Below are positions 20,896 to 47,658 of a stretch of DNA of 64,000 nt, piece after piece. The notes beneath the pieces were generated by a model, which saw nothing but the letters and a program-made list of their open reading frames with translations, had not been told where the DNA came from and made no database searches. Within the stretch, counting starts at the first letter, position 1; the number at the start of each line of letters is the position of its first letter. Both the position numbers and the translations under genes were made by a program. The stretch is from Methanospirillum hungatei (lineage in GTDB: Archaea; Halobacteriota; Methanomicrobia; Methanomicrobiales; Methanospirillaceae), in contig NZ_CP077107.1 in NCBI RefSeq assembly GCF_019263745.1, forward strand, positions 1,736,001-1,800,000. Reading direction: 5' to 3'.

Positions 20896-21077
20896 ATCAT
20901 CCCTCCATCCTCCAAAGGGCATCGATCCAGATATGAAGGTGAGTTTCCGGAAAGTTCACATATTCTCCTCCGTGCCGGTTTTTTTGGATCTCCCTGTCTC
21001 AGGTACCAGATCCAAAGAAGATGCGGACAATTTTTCATAGCACAATTCCCAGCGGATGGCCGGTTCATTGGGAACAT
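20892..21077 (-). CDS. Small Cys-containing protein (61 aa)
   Basis: The frame starts MFPMNRPSAGNC and contains C-x5-C (CAMKNC), later RRRICEL and a C-terminal DRCPLED. GGGGG lies 6 bases before ATG 21077; an alternative ATG at 21068 overlaps the primase stop as ATGA. The stop in turn overlaps the next start as ATGA. This chain of coupled starts favours this frame, although another frame over the same bases is also open. Function unknown. Confidence 0.5.
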   Translation of the reverse strand: MFPMNRPSAGNCAMKNCPHLLWIWYLRQGDPKKPARRRICELSGNSPSYLDRCPLEDGGMI

Positions 21078-24000
21078 GAACTGCCCCCTTCAGACTTTTT
21101 TGACTGTTCCCGAAGATAACAGGCATCACACAGGCCAAGATGAGCTGTATGATCATACCAGATCAGTGGATTGGTATTACAGACATGACACTTTCCTGCA
21201 CTGGCGTTGAGTCTGACCATCTGATCAGTGCTGATGAGACCTGGAAGGGGTATAATGGATGCAACATGTCTGCTGACCGCCTTGTTATAGCAGTCTGCAC
21301 AGAGAAATGCCAGTTCTTCTCCCTTCTGATGGGATCTTTTCCGGTACTGGACCAGAGATCGTCCACAAAGATGACAGGGCTTTTTTTCCGGCCATCCTTC
21401 TATGCGGAGGTACTCATCCGGTTTGATGGTTGCAGCAATCTTTTCTGCATGTTTTCTGTTATTTTCTGAAGTTATCCGCCCAGATTTATTGCTTTGATCT
21501 GATAAAGAGGACTGATCTGTTGAAATCAGGAGTTCGTTTTCTGCAACCAGGTCCGGACACAGGGGTTCGCAGACATGATCACCGGTGCTTCTCCTGATAT
21601 CTTCAGCCCCTTCTGTGAGTGTGCCTGCTGCAGAAAATGATTCTCTATCTCTAAGTATATGTGTACATGTACTATTTTGAGAGAGATCTGAAGTCCTTTC
21701 ATTTTCTGCAGGTGCAGAAATCCGGTCGGTCTCTGCAGAAAATTTTCTGAAATCATCCTCTGGATCATCAGGCGGAGATGAGTCATCATGATGGTGATCG
21801 TCTTCTGACTGACGAAGTGATACAGCTCCTCCCTTCACCCATGCGTAATACAAGGAATTATCCCAGACATACACCTTGCTTCTCCGGTGGGTGGTCTGTC
21901 CGACATCTCCGACGGTGACTGATCGATCATAGAAGGATATGGCCGGACATTTCTGCAAGAGTCCTGAGTAAATATGGCCCCGTGATGCGTATCCGTTCAG
22001 AAGTTTGGATATAGCAGAATTGGTCCATCCTGTCACCCGCTGGATGTCAAGGACAGTAAGTTCTTCCTGGTTTAACATCCGGATAGCTTTAATTAGTGAT
22101 GATTCATTGCGGGTGAGCTTTGTTATCTGGCCGCCGGTATCTCCGTTCAGGGCATTGTACAGCCTGACCGCTTGTTTGAAATCATCCATGGATGCGATGA
22201 TATACTCAGTTCCATCAACGGTTTTTCTCTCACGCTGAAACTGCATAAGAGCGGCATTTGTCTTGATCAGGTCAAGGAGCATGTCCGGGTTTCGCCGGTT
22301 TGCAACAGACTGAAACTCTATCTGTTCTGCATAGGGGATGATGACAAAGGTGTCCTCTACCATCCGCCATATCTGCCTGATAACAAGGATCTCTTCCCTG
22401 ACCGATGAGACTGCTGGTGGTATCTGTGCTGCCTCCCGAAGTGTCCGCTCCAGGACTTTCTTGTCCTGCTCTTCACTGTCGTCTATCCATGCGGTGAGCA
22501 TCCGGTTGAAGATCTGATCATCTCCGACCCCTTCGACCTTTGCGACCCACCAGACACATCGCTCGGGGATGGTACAGGTGATACCGTTTCTGTCTTTTGT
22601 GACGGTCCGATACTTGAATGGTTTCAGAAATGAGGTGATGACTCCTTTTAAGATCTCCTGCATCTGCTCTGAGAGGGAGACATCATCAAGGGCTATGACT
22701 TTTCCGGGTTTCAAATCCTGTGAGTAAAAGAGTGCTTTGTCACTTATCCGGCCGGATAACCGGAACTCTTCCGGAACCTGGGCCAGCATGGTGTCAATGG
22801 CATGTGACTTTCCTTTTCCTGAATCTCCGGTGATTGAGACATGAAGACCTTTTGAGTTGATGACTATCCGGGATGCAAGCGAGAGAATGAGGCATTCTGC
22901 GACAACCTGATCCCCGACATGGTCTAGGGCAAAGGTTTCACGCATGTACTGGACCGGGTGTCCTTGACGGAGGATCTCTTCGGCTTTTTGTATTATTTCC
23001 GGATTTTCTTCGTGCTCAAAGTTGGGGTGATTTTCTTTTTGTATACCTGATTTTTGGGCTTTCTTCTTTTTCCAGGGATGGGACTTTGAAGATCCGGAAT
23101 TTTTTGAATCTTCTAAATCATCAATATCTGTCGTCTCATGGGTGTCTGATGATTGCAGGCCTCCCAGGAGATTTTGTTCGGCCAGATATCGTTTCCTGGC
23201 ATTCTCTTTTTTTATTCTGGAAAGCCGGTCTTCTGTATAGGGTGTGCCTTCATATTTCTGTTTTAGATCTTTCCACCGCTGTATTCCGCCGCCACAACTG
23301 TTGTGATGACATCCGGCAAAGATGGCACCTGATTTAAATTGAATGGCATAGGCTCCATCCTGATGAGCATCTGAGAACGGGCACTGGTCAAGAATAAAGA
23401 GGGTGCCGTCCCCATATGGTTTCCTGGTATATCCAATATTATACCTGGAAAGCCATGTTGCAAGGTCAACAGGATTATCGGAGATAAGGTTTTTTGACGT
23501 AGTTTTCCCTGACGGCCGGGTTCCGGTTTCGGTTGGGTACAGTGAGGCAAGAGTTGTGAGATGGTCACAACCGGTCAGTTGTAGGGATGCTGGTTCTTCT
23601 GTCAGTGATGCGACCCGGTGTGAACGAGGTGGGGTGTTGTCCCCTTTCCGTGTCCTTGTGCCGTAGAGTTTCCATATCCGGGCAGCATTGTAGTTCGCGG
23701 TATCGATGGTACAGATGTCGTCAGAGAACCGGGCAGAGAGTGCTGTCAGACAGTTTTTGACCAGGTCTGTAGCAGCCTCATCATTGGGAAGATCAATTTT
23801 GCATAAGAGATGAGCCCCATTTCCAGAGTCGGCGATGATAGGTTCAGGCCATCCGACTGACTGGAGATAGGCAGATATCTCCTGTGCCTTGTTCATGGCA
23901 TACTGGTGTTCTTCGTCTGATGATGAGACGCCGGAGGGGCGGACTGGATCGATATCAATAGGAAGCCAATGCCTTCTGATGATGTCCTTGTCGGCGGTTG

Positions 24001-24265
24001 TGGCATCTTTTTTTGAAAGTCTGATTATGATTCGGTTCGCACGACGAGCGAGCAGTGCCGGGTTTACTTCGTTTAAGGTGATGTAGATCCCCCGGATCTG
24101 CGGATTGTCGTCCAGGATACAGACCTGGTCTGCGAGTTTCTCAAAGTTGTCAAAATATCCTGAGCCGATTCCATCATTAGTGATAATTCTGACTTCTACA
24201 ACTCTGCCAGGGGAGGAGATGAGGTGAAGGGCTCGCAGGATCTCTGATCTCCGGTCAAATGCCAT
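21065..24265 (-). CDS. Primase-polymerase/helicase replication protein
   Basis: A 1066-aa multidomain protein. Residues about 1-230 look like an archaeo-eukaryotic primase (PrimPol) domain: DID at 104-106, SGNGAHL near 147-153 and a later RIWKLYGT segment. Around 270-330 lies a Cys/His region. A helicase-type ATPase follows (Walker A GDSGKGKS near 480, Walker B VIALDD near 523), then a winged helix near 745 and two C-terminal zinc ribbons (CHLCG...CADC and CHVC...CDAC). This is the architecture of replication proteins from archaeal plasmids and viruses. Start ATG 24265 has AAAGGAGGGTG upstream. It is the core of the mobile-element-like region. Confidence 0.85.
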   Translation of the reverse strand: MAFDRRSEILRALHLISSPGRVVEVRIITNDGIGSGYFDNFEKLADQVCILDDNPQIRGIYITLNEVNPALLARRANRIIIRLSKKDATTADKDIIRRHWLPIDIDPVRPSGVSSSDEEHQYAMNKAQEISAYLQSVGWPEPIIADSGNGAHLLCKIDLPNDEAATDLVKNCLTALSARFSDDICTIDTANYNAARIWKLYGTRTRKGDNTPPRSHRVASLTEEPASLQLTGCDHLTTLASLYPTETGTRPSGKTTSKNLISDNPVDLATWLSRYNIGYTRKPYGDGTLFILDQCPFSDAHQDGAYAIQFKSGAIFAGCHHNSCGGGIQRWKDLKQKYEGTPYTEDRLSRIKKENARKRYLAEQNLLGGLQSSDTHETTDIDDLEDSKNSGSSKSHPWKKKKAQKSGIQKENHPNFEHEENPEIIQKAEEILRQGHPVQYMRETFALDHVGDQVVAECLILSLASRIVINSKGLHVSITGDSGKGKSHAIDTMLAQVPEEFRLSGRISDKALFYSQDLKPGKVIALDDVSLSEQMQEILKGVITSFLKPFKYRTVTKDRNGITCTIPERCVWWVAKVEGVGDDQIFNRMLTAWIDDSEEQDKKVLERTLREAAQIPPAVSSVREEILVIRQIWRMVEDTFVIIPYAEQIEFQSVANRRNPDMLLDLIKTNAALMQFQRERKTVDGTEYIIASMDDFKQAVRLYNALNGDTGGQITKLTRNESSLIKAIRMLNQEELTVLDIQRVTGWTNSAISKLLNGYASRGHIYSGLLQKCPAISFYDRSVTVGDVGQTTHRRSKVYVWDNSLYYAWVKGGAVSLRQSEDDHHHDDSSPPDDPEDDFRKFSAETDRISAPAENERTSDLSQNSTCTHILRDRESFSAAGTLTEGAEDIRRSTGDHVCEPLCPDLVAENELLISTDQSSLSDQSNKSGRITSENNRKHAEKIAATIKPDEYLRIEGWPEKKPCHLCGRSLVQYRKRSHQKGEELAFLCADCYNKAVSRHVASIIPLPGLISTDQMVRLNASAGKCHVCNTNPLIWYDHTAHLGLCDACYLREQSKKSEGGSSCSQ

Positions 24266-24605
24266 GGACACCCTCCTTTATTGCTGCAAATCCACCGGCC
24301 ATGACATGATAGCGATCCCAGACAGCAGCCCGTCTGATCCAGAGCTGGATGGTCCCCGGACAGGTACCTGATGCTGCCATTTGAAAAAGCGGGTTCATCT
24401 CGCTCACGAGACGGTCTTTCTTAAGCGGTCTCCTCAGGGATTTTACTTTAATTAAGAGGATGTCCTGCCGGTTTTTCCATGCTATGATATCGATAGGCAG
24501 GGTTGGGGTTACGACCCGCAGTGCAGTATATCCAAGCTCCTGAAGAAGCCGGCGTGCTGCGTGAGGCGAGGTCCGACAGGTGGAATAATCAGGGGTGTCA
24601 GACAT
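24255..24605 (-). CDS. PD-(D/E)XK nuclease-like protein
   Basis: A 116-aa protein. The pattern SPHAARRLLQELGY...PIDIIAWKN..ILLIKVK resembles the core of restriction-endonuclase-like or Holliday-junction-resolvase-like folds: helix, then D, then a strand ending in x-x-K. The usual acidic residue before the lysine is replaced (LIKVK rather than ExK), so catalytic competence is uncertain. It overlaps genes on both sides and begins inside the 131-aa gene. A degraded second copy lies at about 25.5-25.75 kb. Confidence 0.6.
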   Translation of the reverse strand: MSDTPDYSTCRTSPHAARRLLQELGYTALRVVTPTLPIDIIAWKNRQDILLIKVKSLRRPLKKDRLVSEMNPLFQMAASGTCPGTIQLWIRRAAVWDRYHVMAGGFAAIKEGVHGI

Positions 24606-35725: not shown

Positions 35726-36550
35726 TTATAAAACCCCGATATCTTCATTCCAGAGTTCCGGGCATTTTCTAATAAAGGCCTCCATCATCTGAACACATTC
35801 CAAAAGATCAAGATCCAAAACCTTCACTCCATGAGCTTCCATGAATTCTCGTGCTCCGGGAAATGTTCTTGATTCGCCGACAATAACCTGAGGAATGTTA
35901 AACTGCACAACTGCTCCGGCACATAAGTAACAAGGCATCAAAGTCGAGTACAGGATACAATCTTTGAATGATCCAATTCTTCCAGCATTCCGGATACAAT
36001 CAATCTCTGCATGGACCACTGGGTCTACGTCCTGAACCCGCCGGTTATGTCCTCTACCAATTATTTCTCCATTTTTTACCAGCACAGAACCGATAGGTAT
36101 ACCCCCTTCATCTCGGCCCAGTTCTGCTTCCCTTATCGCAGCCTGCATAAAGGGATCATTCCGGTCAGGTTCAGATACACTTTTTCTGCCGATGATCTCA
36201 TCCTCTTCTCTCCAGAGTGGATCACAAATTGCAAGAAAGAGGAGATCTTCAGAGCCGGTATTCTCAATCCACTGAGTTTTTCCTGGAGGGATATACACCA
36301 GTTGCCCGTCATAAACCTCCTCTGTTTCATCACCAATATGCATCATTCCCTTCCCGGATAAGATGTAATATGCTTCAGAAGACTGGATAAGCCGATGAGG
36401 CAGAGTTTTCTTCCCAGGCTCAACCCATGCATGAGCGATACTATATCGTGCAGATATGTCTCTATTGAGACGTAAAGGATGGAAAATTTCCGCTAACTGA
36501 CTTCCATCAGCAACCTTGCTATGAGGCACCCTGGTATCATATATATCCAT
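35726..36550 (-). CDS. Cupin-cytosine deaminase fusion
   Basis: A 274-aa protein. Residues about 30-115 form a cupin (EPGKKTLPHRLIQSSEAYYILSGKG...IPPGKTQWIENTG). Residues 130-274 form a zinc nucleoside deaminase: HAEID near 185 (Zn His and catalytic Glu) and MPCYLCAG near 213 (Zn Cys pair). The C-terminus CPELWNEDIG is very like the end of yeast cytosine deaminase Fcy1 (RPQDWFEDIG). The likely activity is cytosine or a related base deamination; the cupin may bind a ligand or regulate it. Start ATG 36550 (MDIYDTRV) is chosen over a longer hydrophobic extension. Confidence 0.8.
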   Translation of the reverse strand: MDIYDTRVPHSKVADGSQLAEIFHPLRLNRDISARYSIAHAWVEPGKKTLPHRLIQSSEAYYILSGKGMMHIGDETEEVYDGQLVYIPPGKTQWIENTGSEDLLFLAICDPLWREEDEIIGRKSVSEPDRNDPFMQAAIREAELGRDEGGIPIGSVLVKNGEIIGRGHNRRVQDVDPVVHAEIDCIRNAGRIGSFKDCILYSTLMPCYLCAGAVVQFNIPQVIVGESRTFPGAREFMEAHGVKVLDLDLLECVQMMEAFIRKCPELWNEDIGVL

Positions 36551-36654
36551 GTATATCCTTAGCATGAAATCTGACAAAAATATGTGTAATTTCAGATCAG
36601 ATCCGAACATCTTAAGTAGTGGTGTAGAGAATTTCACATTCAGGAGAAACACCT

Positions 36655-37275
36655 ATGGATGACTCAAAGAAGTACTCACTCCCTGCACTGTCATATGCAT
36701 ACGGAGCACTATCTCCACATATTTCTGAAAAACAACTGACTTTGCATCACCAGAAACACCACCAGGCCTACGTAACCGGAGCAAACACCATTTTTGAAAA
36801 ACTGGAAAAGGCACGAAGTGAAGGTTCTGACCTTGATCAGAAGGCACTCCTCAAGGAGTTATCATTTCATATCGGCGGACACCGTCTTCACACGCTTTTC
36901 TGGGAAAACCTTGCCCCGGCAGGAAATGGTGGTGGAGGAGCACCATCTGGGATCCTTGCAGAATGGATAAACAAGGACTTTGGTTCATTTGACCGGTTTA
37001 AAAAAGAATTTACCCAGGCAGCATCTTCAGTAGAGGGATCAGGGTGGGCTACTCTTTCGGTATGCCTTGGGACACAACGACTTCTGCTCATGCAGGTTGA
37101 AAAACATAATGTAAACGTATTTCCCGGATTTCGAATCCTGATGGTGCTGGATGTCTGGGAGCATGCGTATTATCTTGATTACATGAATGACCGGGGGAAA
37201 TTTATCGAAAATTTCTGGAACATAGTGAACTGGGAGATCGTAAATCAGCGACTTCAGGCGGCTTTGAAGAACTGA
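36655..37275 (+). CDS. sod: Superoxide dismutase, Fe/Mn family
   Basis: A 206-aa enzyme that dismutes superoxide. Metal ligands are His in HHQKHHQAY near residue 31, His in HIGGHRLH near 78, and Asp and His in [13 protein letters not shown] near 165-170. The GGGGAPSG loop and length fit iron-type archaeal SOD. It is divergent from the cupin-deaminase gene and followed by a chemoreceptor. Confidence 0.95.
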
Positions 37276-37349: not shown

Positions 37350-39626
37350 ATGGCGGATTCATACCAACAGACAACAAACCCGGATGGCTACCAGAACCGG
37401 GAATCACAGACAATACTCAATGATATCCCAAACCCCATTCTGGTTCTGAAAGAAAACCGCATTATATATGCTAATATGGCAGCTATCCGCACATTTCGGG
37501 CGCGCCAGGCAGATGATCTCATGGGATCTTTCCTATCTGATTTGTCTCCCACCCATCAGCCTGATGGTTCTTCTTCAGCAGTTATGATTCAAGAACTCCT
37601 GAAGACAGTTCAAAGAGGAAAAAACACCAGGTTTGAATGGGTATTTACCAGGTTTGACAAAGTTGAATTATCAGGAAAAGTAACCATTCGCCAGTCAGAG
37701 TATTCTAAAACCCCATCCCTGATTGTTTCAATAATTGATAATACCCCTGAGCATCATGCTATTCGTGACATTCTCCATCTTGCCGAAGAGATGAAGAGCG
37801 GCAACCTGAGAGCACGACTCAATGCACAAGATTACAAAGGAGATATGTTTAAACTCATCACCGGCATCAATGAGATGCTCAATGGCATTCTTCATCCATT
37901 CAGGGACATGAACCGAGTGCTCCAGAAGATTGCGAAAGGTGATATGAGTGCAGGTATCGACCAGGTATATTCCGGGGAGCATGAAAAGATTAGGCAGGCT
38001 GTCAACGGAGTGGCTGATGTTACGAAGGAGGTACACAAGGAGATCTCCCTGATGGTGGAGGCGGCAAAACGTGGTGACCTGGCAAACAGGGGAAGACCAG
38101 AATTATTCACCGGAGAATATGCAGAAACCATCAAGGGTATGAATGAGATGCTTGATGCAATTCTTACCCCTATCCGGGCAGGAAACCGGATTCTTCAAAA
38201 GATCCGGAAAGGGGACCTGAGTGAACGAGTCGAGATCGAATGTGTGGGTGATCATGCCAAGATTAGAGATGGAATTAATGCGGTTCATGACTGGTTAAAT
38301 GGCCTGATTATTTATGTGACTCGGATTGCAGACGGTGACATGAATGCAGAGATAATCCAGGCATCAGATAGGGATCAGATCCATGGGCCGCTTGTCAGGA
38401 TGCGGGATAATATCCGGGATGTTATCTCTGATGTGGATATGCTTGTTACGTCAGGATCTGAAGGAAGATTACAGGTTCGTGCCGATCCCTCCCAGCATAA
38501 AGGAGATTTCAGGAAGATTATCGAGGGGATCAATAAAACACTGGATTCAGTTGTTATCCCGATTCATGAGGCAATGGATGTCTCAAATGATTATGCACAG
38601 TATGATTTCACCAGAAGAATGAATACCGATGTTTCATACTCTGGAGAGTGGAAAGCATTTCAAACAGCCCTTGATGATGTGGGCCATCATGTCTCTGATG
38701 CAATTTCAATCATTACCAAACAGATCGAAGTATTAAATAATGTTTCAACCCAGGCTTCTTCAAGTATCAGGGATATTTCTGGTGGATCTTCGCTTCTTGC
38801 TGAAATTGCACAAAATGTAAGTCTCAAAGCAGAACAGGGTGGAGATGGTCTTTCTCAGATTCTGCGGGCAATGGAAGATCTTGCAGTCAACGTATCTGAA
38901 GTATCAGCACGGACAGGAGAAGTAAATCAGATCTCCTCAGATACCAACAATCTCTCGAAACAAGGATCGGCCCTTGCACAGGAAGCTGAACGGGGTATGA
39001 AAGAGATCACGAGCTCAACGGACATGGTCACTGGTCTGGTCCATGAGATCATGGAAGAGATGAGCAAAATAAGCAAGATATCCCTCGTGATATCTGATAT
39101 TGCATCACAAACGAACCTTCTTGCATTAAATGCCGCTATTGAAGCAGCACGGGCAGGAGAGGCAGGAAGAGGATTTGCCGTTGTTGCAAGTGAAGTCAAA
39201 TCACTGGCTCTTGAGTCCAGGAAGTCTGCAGAGAATATTTCTGAGATGATTGAGGGGTTAACAAAGAAGACAGAGCAGGCCTCTGAAACTATGGATAAGA
39301 GTGTCATGGTAGTCAGAGAAGGTGGAAAAGCTCTGAATGAAACGCTCGAAGTCTTCAATAAGATCATTGATTCGGTTAATACAGTCAGTTTACAGATGGA
39401 TAATGTAGCAAAGTCTGCAGAACAACAGGCTGCTGCAGTAGAAGAGATTACCGCGTCTATAAACGAAGTAAATACCCTTGTTTCAGGAACTGCGAAAGAT
39501 GCCGTTGCAGCAGCAGCAGCAAGTGAAGAAGCCTCGGCAGCAATTGACCAGATTTCAGAACAGATAATCCATGTCCATGAAGTTGCCGAAAACCTCAATA
39601 AAGAGACAAATAAATTCGTAGTCTGA
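37350..39626 (+). CDS. Soluble PAS-polyHAMP methyl-accepting chemotaxis protein
   Basis: A 758-aa receptor without any transmembrane segment, so cytoplasmic. A PAS domain at about 20-130 (DIPNPILVLKENRIIYANMAA) is followed by an array of HAMP-like units at about 140-430, each with a 'KGDMS/KGDLS...GEH..IR.G.N' signature. The MCP hairpin ([22 protein letters not shown] near 595) closes the protein. PAS suggests sensing of an internal redox or ligand cue. No che genes are adjacent. Confidence 0.92.
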   Translation: MADSYQQTTNPDGYQNRESQTILNDIPNPILVLKENRIIYANMAAIRTFRARQADDLMGSFLSDLSPTHQPDGSSSAVMIQELLKTVQRGKNTRFEWVFTRFDKVELSGKVTIRQSEYSKTPSLIVSIIDNTPEHHAIRDILHLAEEMKSGNLRARLNAQDYKGDMFKLITGINEMLNGILHPFRDMNRVLQKIAKGDMSAGIDQVYSGEHEKIRQAVNGVADVTKEVHKEISLMVEAAKRGDLANRGRPELFTGEYAETIKGMNEMLDAILTPIRAGNRILQKIRKGDLSERVEIECVGDHAKIRDGINAVHDWLNGLIIYVTRIADGDMNAEIIQASDRDQIHGPLVRMRDNIRDVISDVDMLVTSGSEGRLQVRADPSQHKGDFRKIIEGINKTLDSVVIPIHEAMDVSNDYAQYDFTRRMNTDVSYSGEWKAFQTALDDVGHHVSDAISIITKQIEVLNNVSTQASSSIRDISGGSSLLAEIAQNVSLKAEQGGDGLSQILRAMEDLAVNVSEVSARTGEVNQISSDTNNLSKQGSALAQEAERGMKEITSSTDMVTGLVHEIMEEMSKISKISLVISDIASQTNLLALNAAIEAARAGEAGRGFAVVASEVKSLALESRKSAENISEMIEGLTKKTEQASETMDKSVMVVREGGKALNETLEVFNKIIDSVNTVSLQMDNVAKSAEQQAAAVEEITASINEVNTLVSGTAKDAVAAAAASEEASAAIDQISEQIIHVHEVAENLNKETNKFVV

Positions 39627-39637
39627 TTCTGTTCTGG

Positions 39638-40759
39638 TCAGTTCTTCCTGACCTCAGAATAGAACCTGTTTTTAATCTCCAGTGGAGAGAGTAAAATATT
39701 TGGAACATTCCGGTTTCCAGGTCTGATAATTACATGAATAAATGATGGACCACCTGAACGTGCCTTTGTATATGCATCCCGGAGTTCTTCAGGAGTGTGA
39801 ACTTTCCATGTCCGAACAAATCCGCTGGCTCGTGCCAGTAATTCCAGATCAACAGTCTTCCATGCCGGAGAACACTGATTTCCGGTGCTTCCAAATACTC
39901 CGTTGTCAAGACCGATAATAATCAGATTATCAGGGGATTCTCCGGCAATAACCGGAAGGACAGCTGTTCCAAGAAGGCTTCCGTCACCGTCAAGGACGAC
40001 CACCGTCCGGTCAGTTCCAAGAGCGATACCAAATCCAAGGGGACTTGCCTGTGTATATGAGCCGAGCATGTAGAAATTGGCCGGATTATCCCATGCATGA
40101 TAGAGTTCCTTTGATGGAACACCGATATTTGAGACGACCAGTTCATCGGTCATCAACGACGCAAGAACCCCGATTGCATCAGCCCGCTGCATGACTGATT
40201 CATGAATGACTCCCTGATAGGAAAGACTCGTTGTTCTGGTCCGTACTGTTGGTTCGGATTTCAGGAGTTCTTCCTCTCCCTCCCAGACCTGAGGTGAGAT
40301 AAGAGCAACATGAGGTCTGCTTTCGATCCAGGCATCACTGATGACCGAGGTGATGAGATCAATATCCGCAGGTTCCCGGATAATCGTGCAGGGAATATTG
40401 TATAATTTCAGGAGATCCGGGATCTTTTCATTAAACGGGATCTGGGCAGATATTTTCTCCTGGTAATATCCTCTCCAGCTTGCAAGGATTGGCAGGGGAA
40501 GCATGTACAGGTAGGGGAGGGTCATCAGGGCATTGAGAGAGTTACCAAGACCTGAACTCTGCATCTGTAATACGCCCCGTTTTCCCATCAGGGACAGGCC
40601 GGACAGAATCCCAATACCGTCCTCTTCACGTGAGATGGTAATATACCGGAATTCTTTCTCAAGGATCTCACAGAGATCTTTTGTCCGATCACAGGGAAGC
40701 GAGATGATATACTCAATTGCTTCCTTTTTTAATATCCCTGAAACGGTCTGTTCATGCAT
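39638..40759 (-). CDS. comDE: Sulfopyruvate decarboxylase, ComD-ComE fusion
   Basis: Thiamine-diphosphate enzyme of 373 aa converting sulfopyruvate to sulfoacetaldehyde in coenzyme M synthesis. The N-terminal half (residues 1-165; SREEDGIGILSGLSLMGKRG, MQSSGLGN) corresponds to ComD. The C-terminal half (185-373; YMLGSYTQASPLGFGIAL, then GDGSLLG...LIIIGLDN, the TPP/Mg motif) corresponds to ComE. Separate subunits occur in Methanococcales; the fused form occurs in Methanosarcina-type organisms. It overlaps the cysteate synthase gene by 8 bases and ends the operon. Confidence 0.92.
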   Translation of the reverse strand: MHEQTVSGILKKEAIEYIISLPCDRTKDLCEILEKEFRYITISREEDGIGILSGLSLMGKRGVLQMQSSGLGNSLNALMTLPYLYMLPLPILASWRGYYQEKISAQIPFNEKIPDLLKLYNIPCTIIREPADIDLITSVISDAWIESRPHVALISPQVWEGEEELLKSEPTVRTRTTSLSYQGVIHESVMQRADAIGVLASLMTDELVVSNIGVPSKELYHAWDNPANFYMLGSYTQASPLGFGIALGTDRTVVVLDGDGSLLGTAVLPVIAGESPDNLIIIGLDNGVFGSTGNQCSPAWKTVDLELLARASGFVRTWKVHTPEELRDAYTKARSGGPSFIHVIIRPGNRNVPNILLSPLEIKNRFYSEVRKN

Positions 40760-42020
40760 AATATCTCATCCATTCCTGCACCACTGCAGTTATCTTCTCA
40801 AAGGGAGTCTCTTTTGATGTCACGATACCTGGTTCTTTTACAAACCGGGGAAGATCTTTCGCTCCCCTGGCATATCCTCCCCCCGTGATATTGATAAGAA
40901 TCTTCTCATCAGGGTTGATCATCCCTGAACGAACTGCCTCTCGTAAGCCTGCCACACAAACCGCTGCAGCAGGATCAGGATCTATTCCTTCACATGAAGA
41001 GAAGAGGTTTCCTCCTTCCTGTGCATCTTCAGATGAAACGCCGGCCATGAGTCCGTTTGTTGCGATGAGCGTATCAAACACCCCTCCGGCAATTCCATAG
41101 GGAGGTGTCCGGTTTGTCAGGACATCTGAATACACCTGGGAGATGGCATGTTCTGCATCAGGCATATCTTCATCTCTGATCTCCCGTCTTCCCTCCTGCC
41201 AGGCCCTGACCATCGGGATAAATGGTTCATTCTGGAAGAGAAGGAGGCGGGGCATTTTCGTCCCGAACCGACCATCTGCAATAAGCCGGAGCGAGGCTTC
41301 GTATGCTGCAATTCCCCCGGTTCCGCTCCCGACAGCCTGCACGTACCAGTCAGGAAGTGTTCCCATCGCAAGGGTTCCAGCCAGCATGACGGTGCCCATG
41401 CCATCACGTCTGGCAACATTTTTCGCTCCTCCTTCCGGAAAAACACCTGGGAGTGTGCAGATCCGGTGTCCCAGACTGATGGCATCGGTATAATCACCTG
41501 AGATGGTAATCAGCAGGATATCGTGTGCTGGTAGGGTCGTGAATATCCGGTCTCGTGCAGATTCAGGAACGACGATGATGACCGGCTGACCAGTCTGAGC
41601 TGAAACCTCGGCAAATGCTCGGCCTGTATTTCCGGCAGAGGACACCTGGATGATTCCCTTCGTCCGCTCGGATATCCGCTGCATCGTCGGGAAGGCTTCA
41701 AACTCCTTAAACGAACCGCTCACGGCAAAGGCACCCACTTCAGGCCAGTACCCGGAGAAGACAATCCAGAGATCTGAAAGGCCCAAAGCACGAGCAAGAC
41801 CCTCACTTTTGAAACAGACCGGCTCAGCCCGGGTCGGGAGTGAACTGATGACCGGAAGCCAGTCCATATATTTGAAAACACCCGGCGCCTCATGGTGCGT
41901 TATCTGACGTACTGAATATTTTGCCCGAATAAGTCCCTGACACCCATCCGGACAGGTGAGCGTATAGGAATCGGAAAATTCCTTATTACATACCGGGCAG
42001 GTGAGCGTATATCCGGTCAT
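40752..42020 (-). CDS. Cysteate synthase (PLP-dependent, threonine-synthase-like)
   Basis: A 422-aa PLP fold-II enzyme. An N-terminal zinc-like cluster (CPVCN...CPDGC, residues 8-27), the PLP lysine in SGSFKEFEAF (K105), SSAGNTGRAFA near 127 and the phosphate loop GSGTGG near 232 are visible. Next to ComDE it fits cysteate synthase, which makes cysteate from O-phosphoserine and sulfite in the coenzyme M route of Methanosarcinales and Methanomicrobiales. Threonine synthase is the alternative, made unlikely by context. ATGA overlap with the COG1900 gene upstream. Confidence 0.9.
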   Translation of the reverse strand: MTGYTLTCPVCNKEFSDSYTLTCPDGCQGLIRAKYSVRQITHHEAPGVFKYMDWLPVISSLPTRAEPVCFKSEGLARALGLSDLWIVFSGYWPEVGAFAVSGSFKEFEAFPTMQRISERTKGIIQVSSAGNTGRAFAEVSAQTGQPVIIVVPESARDRIFTTLPAHDILLITISGDYTDAISLGHRICTLPGVFPEGGAKNVARRDGMGTVMLAGTLAMGTLPDWYVQAVGSGTGGIAAYEASLRLIADGRFGTKMPRLLLFQNEPFIPMVRAWQEGRREIRDEDMPDAEHAISQVYSDVLTNRTPPYGIAGGVFDTLIATNGLMAGVSSEDAQEGGNLFSSCEGIDPDPAAAVCVAGLREAVRSGMINPDEKILINITGGGYARGAKDLPRFVKEPGIVTSKETPFEKITAVVQEWMRYYA

Positions 42021-43240
42021 ACCTGAAATTCACCCCTGACCAGCATATCCCGCACTTTCCTGCAGAGTATCTCTGCTCTTCTCCGGTCAGACTGCCGGAG
42101 GACAATCGGAATGCCAGATCCATCTCTATCGCTCCTGATGGAACCAAAATTCCCCTCATACGCTGATTCTTTACAGATCTGCACACAGGTTCCACAGACA
42201 AAACATTGTATCTGATTGATCGTCCCGTCTTCCCGGATTGCATCAACCGGACACGAGGTTCTGGCATCACAGGGAGAACAATGAAGACATCGCTGTGGAT
42301 GATACAAGACCCGTGTTGCAGTGCCGGTCCAGACCTGATCATACGAGGCAGTCCCAACCGGCTGGCGGTCACTGATATCCACAACCGGCATTGGAATATC
42401 ACAATCCCGGACAGAAAGGGAAGTGAGGACATCCTTGTCAACAACCGGAATTACAGTCCCGATACTGGTGATACACTCAGGACCTGCAGCGGTGAGAAAA
42501 CCGCCACAAAACTGTGCATCCATCTCCTTCAGGTCGGCATGGACTGAAAGATTGGGCCGCTCAGTAGAACTCCTGGTCCCGGTTCCAATAACCCGGCCAC
42601 CAGCCCCGTTCACGATCACCGGAGTACCGGAAGAGAGGAACCGAAGGGTTGGATCATTTTCCACCGGGTTTATCTCCCCGCATCCGGATACGGTAGCCTG
42701 TGTACTGGTACCCTGAAGAGGCAGGGCAGAAAATATCGTCTTCTCAGGTTCGCAGGCACGATTGATGATTGCAGAGTAGTTCTTAAACGCACTCCGGGTT
42801 GTGAATAACCGGGCAAACGGGAGGTCAGAAAGGGTTACATCAGCCTCATAGTTCTTTCCAGCCGAGGTAACTGCGACATGGATCTCCTTACCAGCAATGA
42901 GGTCATGGATCAGATGTCCCCCGCCATACCGGTCATCTGCATGGGCTGTCCCGAATACCATGAGATCCACAAGACCCAGTCGTTCATTCGGGCAGGGACC
43001 AGGAATTGCAGGCACTCCCTGCAGAGAGATGGTATCTGCACGTGAAAAGGCTCCGGGAGGGGCAACAGGAACAGAAAGGACCGCATAGGTGCCAGACATA
43101 ACTCCACAAGTTCCACAGGTGACCACATCAACATCAGAGATGGTATCACCTTGTGCAATTCTTTTCTTTAACTCCGATGCGGTCAGGATAACTGCAGAAC
43201 CATCAGCAAGGGCAGTCCGGATCTCATCGATTGGTCTCAT
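42017..43240 (-). CDS. COG1900/DUF39-ferredoxin fusion, methanogenesis marker 16 (candidate CoM thiol-forming enzyme)
   Basis: A 407-aa protein. The first 310 residues are DUF39/COG1900 with TCGTCGVMSGT (C42, C45), AGKNYEADVTL and GTPVIVNGAGGRVIGTGT segments. The last 90 carry an 8-Cys two-cluster ferredoxin (CLHCSPC...C and CFVCGTC...C, about 318-356). Relatives are aspartate-semialdehyde sulfurtransferases that turn an aldehyde into a thiol to make homocysteine. Beside ComDE, whose product is the aldehyde sulfoacetaldehyde, it is a good candidate for the analogous conversion to coenzyme M. Start ATG 43240 overlaps the Fe-S gene stop. Confidence 0.85.
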   Translation of the reverse strand: MRPIDEIRTALADGSAVILTASELKKRIAQGDTISDVDVVTCGTCGVMSGTYAVLSVPVAPPGAFSRADTISLQGVPAIPGPCPNERLGLVDLMVFGTAHADDRYGGGHLIHDLIAGKEIHVAVTSAGKNYEADVTLSDLPFARLFTTRSAFKNYSAIINRACEPEKTIFSALPLQGTSTQATVSGCGEINPVENDPTLRFLSSGTPVIVNGAGGRVIGTGTRSSTERPNLSVHADLKEMDAQFCGGFLTAAGPECITSIGTVIPVVDKDVLTSLSVRDCDIPMPVVDISDRQPVGTASYDQVWTGTATRVLYHPQRCLHCSPCDARTSCPVDAIREDGTINQIQCFVCGTCVQICKESAYEGNFGSIRSDRDGSGIPIVLRQSDRRRAEILCRKVRDMLVRGEFQV

Positions 43241-43863
43241 AGGAGCCTGATATCCTCCACCCGTACCTGCAGTCCTTCTTTTCGCGAGAATAACTGGTTC
43301 ACAACGCCGGTATGGGAAAGATTCATCATACAATACGCAGGGAGAAACCGCATCCTCCTCCCAAATACCGGTGACTGACGGACACTCTCTGCCATTCCTT
43401 CAAACCCAATGATATGATAGGCCTCAAGATCTTTTACCTCTCTCCCTCGTGAGTAGAGCGGACCGACAACGTGCGTTTCTATCACCCCTGATACGTTGCT
43501 TGCTGACAACACCTGCAGGACATGCTGGACCGGGCATCCGGCTCCCATCGGCCGTCCGGTCAGGATATCACCCGGCTGGACATCCCATTTTTCAACGAGA
43601 TCAGGTCTGAATGGAAGGAGAATTTTCCTTGCCGAACATTCACCAGGTAATGGGTGCAGGATAAAATCAAAGGGGTCTCCCAAAATATCAGCGGTCCCCA
43701 GAATAGCCTCTGTACAGGGCATCTTCTGATGCAGGACCTGAGAGGAGAACGGGCATTCCTCCTTTTTTCTGGTCCCAGTCCGAAGAGCAAGAGAGAACTC
43801 ATCACAGGTCCCGTACCCGCATGCACCACAGTTTCTTCCAGGCGGGGTCCAGTCCTCTCCCAT
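43237..43863 (-). CDS. 4Fe-4S cluster-domain protein of unknown function
   Basis: A 208-aa protein. The N-terminus has C-x2-C-x4-C-x16-C (C12, C15, C20, C37; NCGACGYGTCDEF), the 4Fe-4S motif seen in RnfB and CdhE-type proteins. A further AGCPVQHVL cysteine is near residue 109. The remaining 150 residues (GDILTGRPMGAG, HVVGPLYSRGREVKDLEAYHIIGFEG) form an unrecognised domain. It overlaps the GTPase gene by one base and the COG1900 gene by four, so it is made with them. An electron or sulfur transfer role is inferred from context. Confidence 0.75.
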   Translation of the reverse strand: MGEDWTPPGRNCGACGYGTCDEFSLALRTGTRKKEECPFSSQVLHQKMPCTEAILGTADILGDPFDFILHPLPGECSARKILLPFRPDLVEKWDVQPGDILTGRPMGAGCPVQHVLQVLSASNVSGVIETHVVGPLYSRGREVKDLEAYHIIGFEGMAESVRQSPVFGRRMRFLPAYCMMNLSHTGVVNQLFSRKEGLQVRVEDIRLL

Positions 43864-44567
43864 CAGTCACCTCTGAACATGAGTGTATCTCCATCAAGCT
43901 GACGAAGAACGCCAGTATGATGCTTCCATCCGATGTTCGTCTTTCCAATGCAGACCGTACACACACCAAGCGGAGGGATACCCCGGAGGGTGATGGTGGA
44001 CGGGTCCTGGATATCCTGGGTTTCGCCAATAGCCCTTGTCAGGTATCGCATACCAGTTCCCTGCACGGCATTGGTCTCAACAATATCGATATCTCCCCTG
44101 ATGCCCCGGATCTTCTCTCTGAACACCTCCTTCTCCGCTTGTGAGACAAGGTCAATCCTGGTCACCACCGCGATATCGGCAAGGGCTATCATGGGTGCCA
44201 TCTTTGCAGGTGACTGAATCCCGGAGATTGCAGATAAGACGACAATACCAAATGACTGGGTGGTATACGGAGTACATCGCAGACAAAGGCCCGCACTCTC
44301 GACGATGAGCATATCTGCCTCTTCTGCCATTGCCCACTGAATAGCCTCATCAAGGATCATGATGCCTGCATGATCAGGACAGAGATCACCGGAGTAGACC
44401 TTCTTTGCCGGAATATGAAACTCATCCCTGATCTCTTCGTCTTCGGTGGCACAGACGACATCTATCTTCAGGTATGCAGTTTTCAGCTCCGGATGGGTCC
44501 TGATTATCTGCCTGGTGACCGCAGTCTTTCCAGCCGAGGGAGGACCGGCGATGATGATGAGTTTCAT
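43863..44567 (-). CDS. G3E-like P-loop GTPase (metallochaperone type)
   Basis: A 234-aa SIMIBI-class NTPase. Walker A is GPPSAGKT (8-15), the ESAG switch motif is at 90-93, and TRIDL at 136-140 stands in place of NKxD. Two CxxC pairs are visible: CLRC directly after ESAG (95-98) and CTVC (203-206). HypB, UreG and CobW-type relatives load metals into enzymes, and the CxxC after the switch is a plausible metal site. One-base overlaps link it to both neighbours. GTP rather than ATP use is inferred from the family. Confidence 0.75.
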   Translation of the reverse strand: MKLIIIAGPPSAGKTAVTRQIIRTHPELKTAYLKIDVVCATEDEEIRDEFHIPAKKVYSGDLCPDHAGIMILDEAIQWAMAEEADMLIVESAGLCLRCTPYTTQSFGIVVLSAISGIQSPAKMAPMIALADIAVVTRIDLVSQAEKEVFREKIRGIRGDIDIVETNAVQGTGMRYLTRAIGETQDIQDPSTITLRGIPPLGVCTVCIGKTNIGWKHHTGVLRQLDGDTLMFRGD

Positions 44568-45352
44568 CAGTAGGATACCGGAATGGGCGAAGTGATCAGT
44601 TCACCGGCACGAATCATCTCTCTCATCTGGCCGATAACGCCATCCATGTGAAGCATCTGACGGATTGCATGCTCCTCTGCCCCGTCTGGCTCGATGACCC
44701 GGGAGACGGCACCATCCTGCATGACGATCCGCCGATCTGAGAGTAGGGAGACCAGGGGATCATGGGTGACAAAGAGCAGGGCCTTGTGATGCTGACGAAG
44801 GACTTCTATTACCTTTTCTTTGAATATACCAGCATTTTCAACCTCATCAAGCAGGATTATCGGTGTATTTGAGATGAGAATGGCATCTGCCACCATCAGA
44901 GATCTGGTCTGTCCTCCGGAAAGGCTGGTCATCCGGACATGGGCGGTGATCGGTTCTCCGGTAAACTGGTTTGCAAGATTGATAGTCTCCTGAATGCAGG
45001 ACTCTTTCATATATCCACGGGAAAGGAGATGCATTCGTAAAAAGTCTGATACGCAGAGGTCACACAGGCACCGGGTATTCTGGGTGATGAGGGCAACAGG
45101 TTTTGCTGCCGGGTCACGGACATACCGCTCCGGAGGAAGTTTTCCGTTGACCAGGATCTGCCGCCCGGTGACGGTATCCCGGTTTGCAAATATCTCGATA
45201 TCGTTGATAAAGGCACTTTTTCCTGACCCGGTCGGCCCGACGATAGACAGGGTATCGCCTGGTCTGATGTGGATCTCATCAAATGCCTCCTGTATTCCCC
45301 TGCGATTTCGTCCTGGCAGTATGGTTATATCCCTGATGGTTTCCTCTGTCAT
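44567..45352 (-). CDS. Stand-alone ABC ATPase with Cys motif, first gene of the CoM operon
   Basis: A 261-aa ABC ATPase: Walker A GPTGSGKS (39-46), Q-loop ITQN (90-91), signature LSGGQ (144-148), Walker B IILLDE with Glu170, and H-loop THD (H197). Immediately after the Q-loop lies C-x-C-x2-C (C95, C97, C100), unusual for ABC proteins. No permease or binding protein is nearby, so it is probably a soluble SufC-like or UvrA-like ATPase rather than a transporter. It opens the six-gene operon, with about 350 bases of promoter region shared with the divergent pst genes. Confidence 0.75.
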   Translation of the reverse strand: MTEETIRDITILPGRNRRGIQEAFDEIHIRPGDTLSIVGPTGSGKSAFINDIEIFANRDTVTGRQILVNGKLPPERYVRDPAAKPVALITQNTRCLCDLCVSDFLRMHLLSRGYMKESCIQETINLANQFTGEPITAHVRMTSLSGGQTRSLMVADAILISNTPIILLDEVENAGIFKEKVIEVLRQHHKALLFVTHDPLVSLLSDRRIVMQDGAVSRVIEPDGAEEHAIRQMLHMDGVIGQMREMIRAGELITSPIPVSY

Positions 45353-45708
45353 CCTGATAATAACATATGCAGGATATCAATCATAATATTATCTAAATTT
45401 ACAAAAAAATAAGACAATAAGATAAATTATTATTATTTTTTTGATACTAAGATAACATCAAGCCTGACTATTAGCTCTTTTTTCAAGAAAAGGGAATATC
45501 ATGAAAAATACACATCGTCACCTATAGAGATCCTATATCTCACAATAGTTCTCCATATTCTCTAGAACATAACCTGATGCTTTATTCAGGAGCATGATAC
45601 ATAACCTGCGTAGTCCGGACCATCATCATGCAAATGTTCATACTTACCAGCAAATATTGTATGATCTGATAAATCCGGTCAATCGCTCAATAAGGAGTCA
45701 GAGAGAAC
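45353..45708. other. Divergent promoter region between CoM operon and pst operon
   Basis: 356 AT-rich bases. Close to the CoM operon (45385-45445) lie several A/T tracts suitable for a TATA box. Around 45520-45585 there is a cluster of CTATAGAGAT, CCTATATCTC and CATATTCTCTAG elements resembling those upstream of pstS. No open frame or RNA gene is seen. Confidence 0.45.
45523..45531 (+). promoter_or_regulatory. Candidate phosphate-regulon element upstream of pstCA
   Basis: TATAGAGAT, identical to the nine bases at 50276-50284 upstream of pstS. Related CTATATCTC and ATATTCTCTAG sequences follow within 50 bases. The position is about 180 bases upstream of the pstCA start. Confidence 0.3.
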
Positions 45709-47658
45709 GTGACATCAGGACTGCACAATACCCTGAAATTTTGCCGGAAACGAAGACCACTTGAACTGACCATGCATACTCTATGGTTTGTCTGTGCCAT
45801 ATCCTCAATCATCGGCATATTTTTCATCCTGATTTTCCTGCTTTATGATGCAGTACCTGCCTTTCTGGATATCGGGCTTATTCCTTTTCTCACCGGAGAA
45901 CGATGGGATCCTGCCAGCGTCATTCCAAAATACGGACTTGTTCCACTTATTGTCGGAACATTGCTTGTTACCCTCGGGGCAATGATCTTTGCGGTTCCAT
46001 TTGGTATTGCCTGTGCCATTTATATTGCTGAACTTGCAAGCCCACGGATGAGAACTATTCTGAAACCAGCCATTGAACTTCTTGCTGGAATTCCTTCTGT
46101 AGTGTATGGTTTTTTCGGTCTTGTCATTCTGGTTAAATTTTTACAGGACATTCTTTCAGTCCCATCCGGAGAATCGGTTCTGGCAGGATCAATTCTGCTT
46201 GGGATCATGTCATTACCGACAATTATTAGTGTATCAGAAGATGCCATCAGTTCAGTTCCCCGGTACTTAAAAGAAGGATCTCTCGCTCTTGGTGCTACCC
46301 ATTGGCAGACTATTTCCCATGTAATTATTCCTGCTGCTCTATCCGGTATAACTGCAGCGATAATTCTTGGTATCGGCCGGGCGGTAGGTGAGACGATGGC
46401 AGTGATAATGGTTACCGGCAATGCAGCTATAATACCAGAACCAATCTGGAATATTCTCTCACCGGTGCGAACACTGACAGGGACACTTGGTATCGAGATG
46501 GGAGAAGTTGCTGTTGGATCACTTCATTATCATGCTTTATTTGGGGTCGCTGTTGTTTTACTTCTGATAACCCTGATTATCAACCTTTCAGCCCTGATGG
46601 TGATGAAACGGATAAAGAGTTCACAAACAGGAGGAGGTTCGAAAAAGGGACTGTTTTCAGATCTTATGATAAATGACCGGCTGTCCTGGATAACGCAGTA
46701 TACCCCCCTGGGATTAACAGCCCTTCTCGGGTTAGCCCTGCTCAGTATCGGAATGTGGTATGGAGCAGTATGTATTGTGCTTCTTTACATAATCGGAAGA
46801 CTGGTTGACAGATACTGTATCAGACAAACCATTCAGAAAATATGGTTTTCAATAATTGGTTTGATGATGGCAGTTGTAACACTCATTCTCATTTTTATCC
46901 TCTATGATATATTTTCAAACGGCCTTCCATATGTTACCCTTGATTTCCTGACACAGGCCCCACGAAATCTTGGACGTGGTGGAGGGATATATCCGGCCAT
47001 TATCGGGACATTCTATCTTGTGACCGGATCAATTCTCATTGCTTTGCCTCTTGGAATAGGGGCAGCCATATATCTGGTTGAATATACTAAAGAGAATATT
47101 CTCACACGGATTATCAGAACCGCTACAGATCTTCTAAATGGAACTCCTTCCATCGTATTTGGTCTGTTTGGGTTCACATTCCTTGTTCTGTTCCTTGGGT
47201 TTGGCATCTCCCTTATTGCGGGTATGGTAACCCTGGCCCTCATGGTTCTTCCAACAGTCATACGGACCACCGAAGAAGCCCTGAAAAGTGTTCCTGACAG
47301 TATCAGGGAGGGATCATATGCCCTTGGGGCAACGAAGTGGCAGACCGTTCGCAGGGTGGTCCTGCCTCCCTCTATTCCAGGAATTATTACCGGAGCAATT
47401 CTTTCAATTGGTCGGGCTGCCGGAGAGACTGCTCCAATCATGTTTACTGCAGTTGTGTTCATGCAACGCAGGCTTCCGGATTCATTTCTTGATCCGGTTA
47501 TGGCCCTTCCATACCATCTTTTTATCCTGGCAACCAATGTTCCGGGAGCCAGAAATAACCAGTACGCAACCGCAGTGGTTCTTTTAGTCCTCGTTATTTT
47601 GATTTATGGAGGGGCAATTGTCATCAGAAATCATTATGATAAAAAAGTCAGGTGGTAA
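45709..47658 (+). CDS. pstCA: Phosphate ABC transporter permease, PstC-PstA fusion
   Basis: A 649-aa membrane protein. Residues 1-305 correspond to PstC and 345-649 to PstA. Each half has the ABC permease EAA-type loop: EGSLALGATHWQTISHVIIPAALSG near residue 195 and EGSYALGATKWQTVRRVVLPPSIPG near 535. In most organisms these are two genes. Together they form the membrane channel for high-affinity phosphate uptake. Start is GTG 45709 with AAGGAG upstream. pstB follows after three bases. Confidence 0.92.
   Translation: MTSGLHNTLKFCRKRRPLELTMHTLWFVCAISSIIGIFFILIFLLYDAVPAFLDIGLIPFLTGERWDPASVIPKYGLVPLIVGTLLVTLGAMIFAVPFGIACAIYIAELASPRMRTILKPAIELLAGIPSVVYGFFGLVILVKFLQDILSVPSGESVLAGSILLGIMSLPTIISVSEDAISSVPRYLKEGSLALGATHWQTISHVIIPAALSGITAAIILGIGRAVGETMAVIMVTGNAAIIPEPIWNILSPVRTLTGTLGIEMGEVAVGSLHYHALFGVAVVLLLITLIINLSALMVMKRIKSSQTGGGSKKGLFSDLMINDRLSWITQYTPLGLTALLGLALLSIGMWYGAVCIVLLYIIGRLVDRYCIRQTIQKIWFSIIGLMMAVVTLILIFILYDIFSNGLPYVTLDFLTQAPRNLGRGGGIYPAIIGTFYLVTGSILIALPLGIGAAIYLVEYTKENILTRIIRTATDLLNGTPSIVFGLFGFTFLVLFLGFGISLIAGMVTLALMVLPTVIRTTEEALKSVPDSIREGSYALGATKWQTVRRVVLPPSIPGIITGAILSIGRAAGETAPIMFTAVVFMQRRLPDSFLDPVMALPYHLFILATNVPGARNNQYATAVVLLVLVILIYGGAIVIRNHYDKKVRW

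Follow-up and report, generated by a model that had tools for sequence, protein, structure and literature searches.

A conserved ATPase, GTPase and Fe-S protein gene trio linked to coenzyme M biosynthesis in methanogens, with a possible role at the sulfite-consuming step

Coenzyme M holds a central place in methanogenesis, and archaea make it by two routes that both begin with the addition of sulfite. In a 64,000-nucleotide stretch of the Methanospirillum hungatei genome (assembly GCF_019263745.1, contig NZ_CP077107.1, positions 1,736,001 to 1,800,000; hereafter the window), an operon at 39638-45352 combines three coenzyme M enzymes with an ABC-type ATPase, a HypB/UreG-like GTPase and an Fe-S protein (hereafter the trio), and the question raised by this locus is what these three proteins do there. 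We found that the link between the trio and the coenzyme M genes is strong, and we favour, with a probability of about 0.4, the reading that the trio is a metal-dependent accessory module which would serve the sulfite-consuming step, most likely as a source of sulfite for the enzyme that performs it, either ComA or cysteate synthase.

A preliminary description made from the sequence of the window had reported six leftward genes in which every junction overlaps, and our reading of the open reading frames (ORFs) confirmed this exactly: all six minus-strand frames are open with the same boundaries, and the junctions overlap, in operon order, by 1 (TGATG), 1 (TGATG), 4 (ATGA), 4 (ATGA) and 8 bases. 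The trio comes first, with the ABC-type ATPase (44567-45352, 261 AA), the GTPase (43863-44567, 234 AA) and the Fe-S protein (43237-43863, 208 AA), which we label as COG2000 type following its description in PMC12068725. It is followed by MMP16, or ComF, the coenzyme M synthase, a COG1900 domain with a ferredoxin insertion (42017-43240; the start was taken as ATG, a longer ORF from a TTG reaching 43333 being less likely), by cysteate synthase, the Type 2 sulfonate-forming enzyme that uses O-phosphoserine and sulfite (40752-42020), and by ComDE, the fused alpha and beta subunits of sulfopyruvate decarboxylase (39638-40759). MMP16 scored 601.5 bits against TIGR03287 (cut-off 363.95), cysteate synthase scored 649.8 bits against TIGR03844 (cut-off 324.9), and ComDE matched TIGR03845 over residues 3-159 and TIGR03846 over residues 192-370, both above cut-off, so that one transcription unit holds all three and is a coenzyme M biosynthesis operon.

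Three of the six genes therefore encode coenzyme M enzymes. The preliminary description had counted only the last two as established, which both are, but the count is out of date: deletion in Methanosarcina acetivorans has identified MMP16 as the main coenzyme M synthase (PMC12068725, PLoS Genet 2025). The legend of Fig 2B in the same paper records the co-localisation of the trio with coenzyme M genes, 'role unknown', and the window's genes belong to this ATPase-GTPase-COG2000 trio, the three being co-localised with coenzyme M genes in other methanogens. What had been proposed as an undescribed system is thus undescribed in its function but not in its co-localisation; the link is already published, the function is not. 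Among the papers listed, this was the only one to contain 'COG2000' together with methanogens, and searches on the locus tags and essentiality of the trio returned nothing. Added here are the recognition of a conserved three-gene cassette in several methanogen lineages, its distribution, its conserved ligands and the comparison of its ComA and cysteate synthase neighbours.

Conservation of the trio beside coenzyme M genes

The order ABC-GTPase-FeS was constant in every locus read, including all 40 of the window's phylum wherever the contig allowed, and the 35 related loci compared at the ABC-GTPase junction all had an overlap of 4 nt; because of this overlap and this constant order, the arrangement is far beyond chance. 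Families are given below by our codes (f8, f10, f12, f14 and f22), and lineage words such as 'ANME-1-like' reflect our own reading. Downstream of the trio in the window's order come MMP16, cysteate synthase and ComDE, with the Fe-S and MMP16 genes adjoining, mostly by a 4-nt overlap, and in one genome (G056) the operon is that of the window minus MMP16. In families f8 and f22, cysteate synthase lies directly upstream of the ABC gene (17/17 loci), and in f22 both MMP16 and ComDE fall outside the neighbourhood. The same upstream position is held by ComA in the Methanobacteria, directly and with an overlap of 1 or 4 nt (16/16 loci), and in 13 of the 17 loci of the Methanococci, at a gap of 11-119 nt. 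In the Methanobacteria, the Methanococci, f8 and f22, MMP16 lies away from the trio or on the opposite strand.

The reactions of ComA and cysteate synthase, two unrelated proteins, are analogous: the former adds sulfite to phosphoenolpyruvate and the latter to phosphoserine. A tree of the concatenated trio proteins grouped f8 and f22 with the Methanobacteria and Methanococci (support 1.00), in a clade apart from the window's order and the ANME-1-like and f14 genomes, and the upstream neighbour has therefore switched between ComA and the non-homologous cysteate synthase, in either direction, within one clade. A locus of Methanosarcinales archaeon AUK006 (L146), a metagenome-assembled genome (MAG), reads ABC-GTPase-FeS-MMP16-ComA-ComB-ComC-ComDE, with ComB and ComC named by sub-cut-off best matches, and so reproduces the layout of the window's operon with Type 1 genes replacing cysteate synthase. 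This locus encodes all known steps from phosphoenolpyruvate and sulfite to coenzyme M, the trio alone being without an assigned step. In another genome (G009) a gene for a NifS/IscS-type cysteine desulfurase lies between the GTPase and Fe-S genes and overlaps the former by 8 nt, and is missing from the trio of its sister genome G039; its presence suggests sulfur chemistry and fits a role at the sulfite step or at MMP16 alike. No trio was found near ComA in the bacterial ComA loci that we fetched; bacteria can obtain sulfite by sulfate assimilation.

On the far side of the Fe-S gene the neighbours are of several kinds. In two loci of the Methanococci (L216 and L228) LarC, the nickel pincer cofactor protein, is convergent to the Fe-S gene, and genes of LarC-like size and orientation occupy that place in other ComA-linked loci of this group. 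A Methanocaldococcaceae-like locus (L211) has a stand-alone McrD gene convergent to the Fe-S gene, and at the place of McrD two further loci (L212 and L214) have a 167-AA gene. In one locus of the Methanobacteria (L240) the Fe-S gene is followed on the same strand by a homologue of the F420 ligase CofE (PF01996, with a score under the CofE cut-off) and then by transcription factor E, and a gene of CofE-like size follows the Fe-S gene in several other loci of the Methanobacteria.

For genome surveys the Fe-S gene was used as a proxy for the trio. A full-length Fe-S protein occurred in 48 of the 197 genomes of the window's phylum, and 47 of these were positive for methyl-coenzyme M reductase (MCR), the lone MCR-negative genome being a 70%-complete assembly; by profile search the protein was found in 36/80 MCR-positive genomes, nearly all 80 of which had a COG1900a match, with the trio present or not. 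Within the window's order (29 genomes), cysteate synthase was present in 17 of 18 trio-positive genomes, and none of the 11 trio-negative genomes had either cysteate synthase or MMP16 (Fisher p = 3e-7, for genomes that are not independent). Beyond this order, in families f8, f10, f12 and f14, the trio was often absent despite the presence of the pathway. It was found in 16 of 120 genomes in the phylum of Methanobrevibacter cuticularis, each of the 16 also having ComA, in 18 of 36 in the phylum of a Methanothermococcus, in one Methanopyri MAG and in ANME-1-like MAGs. Plasmid records held no copy of the trio Fe-S protein, and viral contigs yielded a single weak match to the Fe-S domain only. The trio is thus found in several lineages, with many losses, and both trio-positive and trio-negative species occur in a single genus (G041 and G032, for example). 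The survey of co-occurrence with COG1900 and ComDE for which the preliminary description had called finds the trio beside coenzyme M genes in several methanogen lineages, and its proposed link to coenzyme M biosynthesis holds, as that of a conserved unit, well beyond this genome.

Anatomy of the trio proteins

Conservation of residues was assessed in 73 ABC, 76 GTPase and 74 Fe-S homologues drawn from all lineage groups. In the ABC ATPase the Walker A, LSGGQ, Walker B (DEVENAGI) and H-loop motifs are invariant; the protein matches PF00005 and scores far under every curated NCBIfam cut-off. No membrane permease for it was found in the operon, nor was one conserved beside the trio in the loci examined.

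The GTPase has an invariant P-loop (G8, G13, K14, T15) and seven invariant cysteines and histidines (C63, H66, C95, C98, C203, C206 and H217). Its score against PF02492 (CobW/HypB/UreG) was 48.2 bits (gathering score 20.7), which places it in this superfamily, but it reached only 54.9 bits against HypB TIGR00073 (cut-off 121.2) and 24.9 bits against UreG TIGR00101 (cut-off 204.2), and thus qualifies as neither. The GTPase profile nevertheless matches HypB and UreG structures, with C63-P-D-H66 (CPDH) aligned to the Cys-His of HypB and the Cys-Pro-His of UreG, their metal-binding motif. An AlphaFold2 (AF2) model built from the single sequence had a pLDDT of 39 and was unusable.

In the Fe-S protein eight cysteines and histidines are invariant. 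Four of them (C12, C15, C20 and C37) are the 4Fe-4S cluster ligands of an N-terminal PF04060 domain (39.4 bits, gathering score 23; all 24 members of A1 match), and the other four (C110, H114, C178 and H184) form a C2H2 site in a beta-rich C-terminal domain, a set which is predicted to suit one further metal; R104, P105, P135, G156, P175 and E203 are invariant as well. CFeSP and RnfB also have PF04060 domains, which function there in electron transfer. The C-terminal domain belongs to no Pfam family, and in a PDB sequence search aimed at it the N-terminal cluster domain alone gave matches. The best AF2 model, from four aligned sequences, had a mean pLDDT of 71 (the other four, 39-63) and showed the beta-rich C-terminal domain mostly at 80-90; no PDB fold matched it at E <= 0.001, the best value being 0.16, and since a four-sequence model is weak evidence for a new fold we make no such claim. 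Because it joins a HypB/UreG-type GTPase bearing a Cys/His set with an Fe-S protein and a soluble ABC ATPase, the composition of the trio fits a metal- or sulfur-handling accessory system.

Candidate roles of the trio

We regard it as settled that archaea which make coenzyme M have in the trio a conserved unit, and that this unit is accessory, since many producers manage without it. We infer that it would act at the sulfite step and not in the final thiolation, since the use of sulfite is common to both of its alternative upstream partners and since its presence does not track that of MMP16. Where the sulfite for coenzyme M comes from is a recognised gap in the literature; a reverse reaction of sulfite-reductase-like proteins has been proposed, but some methanogens are without any such protein (PMC3448663, PMC6286981). 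The effector would be the Fe-S protein, a putative redox metalloprotein making or handing over sulfite, in which the N-terminal [4Fe-4S] cluster may exchange electrons with a second metal at C110/H114/C178/H184, where the reduced sulfur species would be handled; the HypB/UreG-like GTPase would load this second metal, and a dimer of the soluble ABC ATPase would drive a conformational or redox step. Which metal this might be, and whether the sulfite might come from sulfide, cysteine sulfur or another source, are matters of hypothesis only. In its boldest form, which the sequences allow and which we think rather unlikely, this proposal would have the trio produce or deliver sulfite, as a new metalloenzyme system driven by nucleotides, in archaea that are strictly anaerobic and fed on sulfide; it would then provide the entry step that is missing from archaeal coenzyme M biosynthesis, and its catalyst would be a protein of a kind not seen before, with a 4Fe-4S cluster and a C2H2 metal site.

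Several observations weigh against service to the sulfite step. The trio was absent from 28 of the 63 genomes with cysteate synthase or ComA and from 90 of the 106 ComA-positive Methanobacteria, and because so many coenzyme M producers are without it the trio must be conditional or replaceable. A Methanothermococcus MAG (L113:10736-11200) has only remnants of the trio after an intact ComA, namely a broken first part of the ABC gene and the last residues of the Fe-S gene, with the remainder gone, which shows trio loss. Conversely, one genome (G183; its trio locus, L103, is at G183:C1:714000-733000) has an intact trio and is without cysteate synthase, an over-cut-off MMP16 and ComA, which points either to a pathway lost not long ago, the trio being a relic, or to a second role of the trio. 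MMP16 is what adjoins the Fe-S gene in the window's order and in ANME-1-like genomes. For an anaerobe, turning sulfide into sulfite is an uphill oxidation that requires an electron sink. A small sulfite-reductase-like protein was present in 23/35 trio-positive versus 22/28 trio-negative producers (p = 0.4 among the matches listed, with classes assigned by match length and ORF size), which shows no clear complementarity and does not support sulfite-reductase-like proteins as replacements for the trio. A role limited to cysteate synthase was rejected, as organisms with ComA carry the trio too.

In the preliminary description the trio was proposed to act on the COG1900 enzyme, MMP16, which converts sulfoacetaldehyde to coenzyme M, either by maturing or energising it or by feeding it sulfur or metal. 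The adjoining Fe-S and MMP16 genes of the window's order, which adjoin also in L059 and L146, agree with this, as does the cysteine desulfurase of the G009 trio, which would fit sulfur delivery; the sulfur donor of MMP16 is not known (PMC12068725). The genome survey tells a different story for MMP16 in particular: the Fe-S gene is lacking in 26 of 59 MMP16-positive genomes, G056 (one contig) has the trio, cysteate synthase and ComDE with an over-cut-off MMP16 nowhere in the genome, G039 (fragmented) has the trio and cysteate synthase without one, and together with G183 these genomes speak against a dedicated MMP16 partner. In addition, ComA or cysteate synthase is the direct upstream neighbour in the Methanobacteria, Methanococci and f8/f22, and ComF works in M. 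acetivorans, and large-genome, Methanosarcina-looking f8 genera are without the trio. We consider service to MMP16, the main rival reading, doubtful; the preliminary interpretation is partly supported, with the sulfite step taking the place of the last step of the pathway. In another proposal the Fe-S protein would act as a back-up synthase of coenzyme M, or as an enzyme that forms thiols, and would be matured by the GTPase and ATPase. G056, with cysteate synthase, ComDE and the trio but without MMP16, might suggest this, as might the redox cluster of the Fe-S protein and its probable second metal site; most trio-positive genomes, however, have MMP16 too, and two genomes with cysteate synthase and with neither MMP16 nor the trio (G019 and G192) imply other back-ups such as L-aspartate semialdehyde sulfurtransferase, which makes this proposal quite improbable.

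It is also improbable that the trio serves the maturation of nickel or Fe-S proteins in general, such as MCR or hydrogenase, and merely travels with coenzyme M genes. Such a role would accord with the HypB/UreG-like GTPase, with LarC convergent in both annotated Methanococci loci, with McrD beside one Methanocaldococcaceae-like locus and with the intact trio of G183 in the absence of the tested coenzyme M enzymes; yet the trio is absent from all 11 of the MCR-bearing, coenzyme-M-less members of the window's order, and LarC, McrD and the other flanking genes vary by lineage and are convergent, whereas ComA and cysteate synthase are co-directional and coupled. The ABC_tran domain could in principle belong to an uptake transporter for sulfonates or coenzyme M, which is very improbable and was rejected, as neither a permease nor a binding protein lies in the operon or is conserved beside the trio, the sole nearby membrane permease being that of the divergent pst system. 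If the trio serves the sulfite step, as we favour, a cassette that stays beside the sulfite-using enzyme even after a swap to an unrelated enzyme gives a direct, testable lead on the origin of sulfite; service to the last step would instead account for how MMP16 obtains its sulfur and metal.

Operon surroundings and comparison with known systems

The operon is isolated. A 356-bp intergenic region (45353-45708), presumably the promoter region of both, separates it from a divergent pst operon that begins at 45709, and on its other side, 11 bp past comDE, a chemotaxis gene in convergent orientation has its end at 39626. A single 649-AA ORF of the pst operon (45709-47658, plus strand) fuses the phosphate permeases PstC (residues 21-301) and PstA (377-643), with PstB and PhoU next. 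Elsewhere in the window, a 308-AA ORF (35726-36652, minus strand) appears, from a TadA match below cut-off, to encode a TadA-like deaminase to which, by eye, a cupin is fused at the N-terminus; a superoxide dismutase-like gene (36655-37275) is divergent from it. A 1068-AA ORF at 21065-24271 (minus strand), primase/helicase-like by eye and without an NCBIfam match, is possibly from a mobile element.

The closest precedent for the trio is found in the coenzyme M neighbourhoods of Chadwick et al., which hold the same three genes with the same co-localisation with MMP16 and other coenzyme M genes in several methanogen orders; the function of the trio, distribution statistics, a ligand analysis and the comparison of ComA with cysteate synthase are absent from their text as read here. 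Each protein also resembles better known ones. The trio ATPase is like SufC, AtwA and PhnK/PhnL, soluble ABC ATPases encoded with Fe-S or metal proteins and presumed to dimerise and do conformational work, but it lacks a partner of the SufB/D, McrC or Phn kind, the 25 best of its 143 NCBIfam matches include none of these families, and no curated family covers it. The trio Fe-S protein shares its N-terminal four-cysteine 4Fe-4S domain with the CFeSP large subunit and RnfB and differs from them in the C110/H114/C178/H184 domain, which is without a Pfam family or, for the model used, a significant PDB fold match. L-aspartate semialdehyde sulfurtransferase (COG1900a plus NIL-ferredoxin), a paralogue of MMP16, likewise has an Fe-S partner for reductive thiolation, although this partner is unrelated to the trio Fe-S protein. 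Finally, the HypB and UreG nickel-metallochaperone GTPases belong to the same superfamily as the trio GTPase and share its P-loop, and at the place of their metal motif the trio has Cys-(Pro-Asp)-His; unlike them, the trio GTPase has no hydrogenase or urease partner and carries the extra invariant residues C98, C203, C206 and H217.

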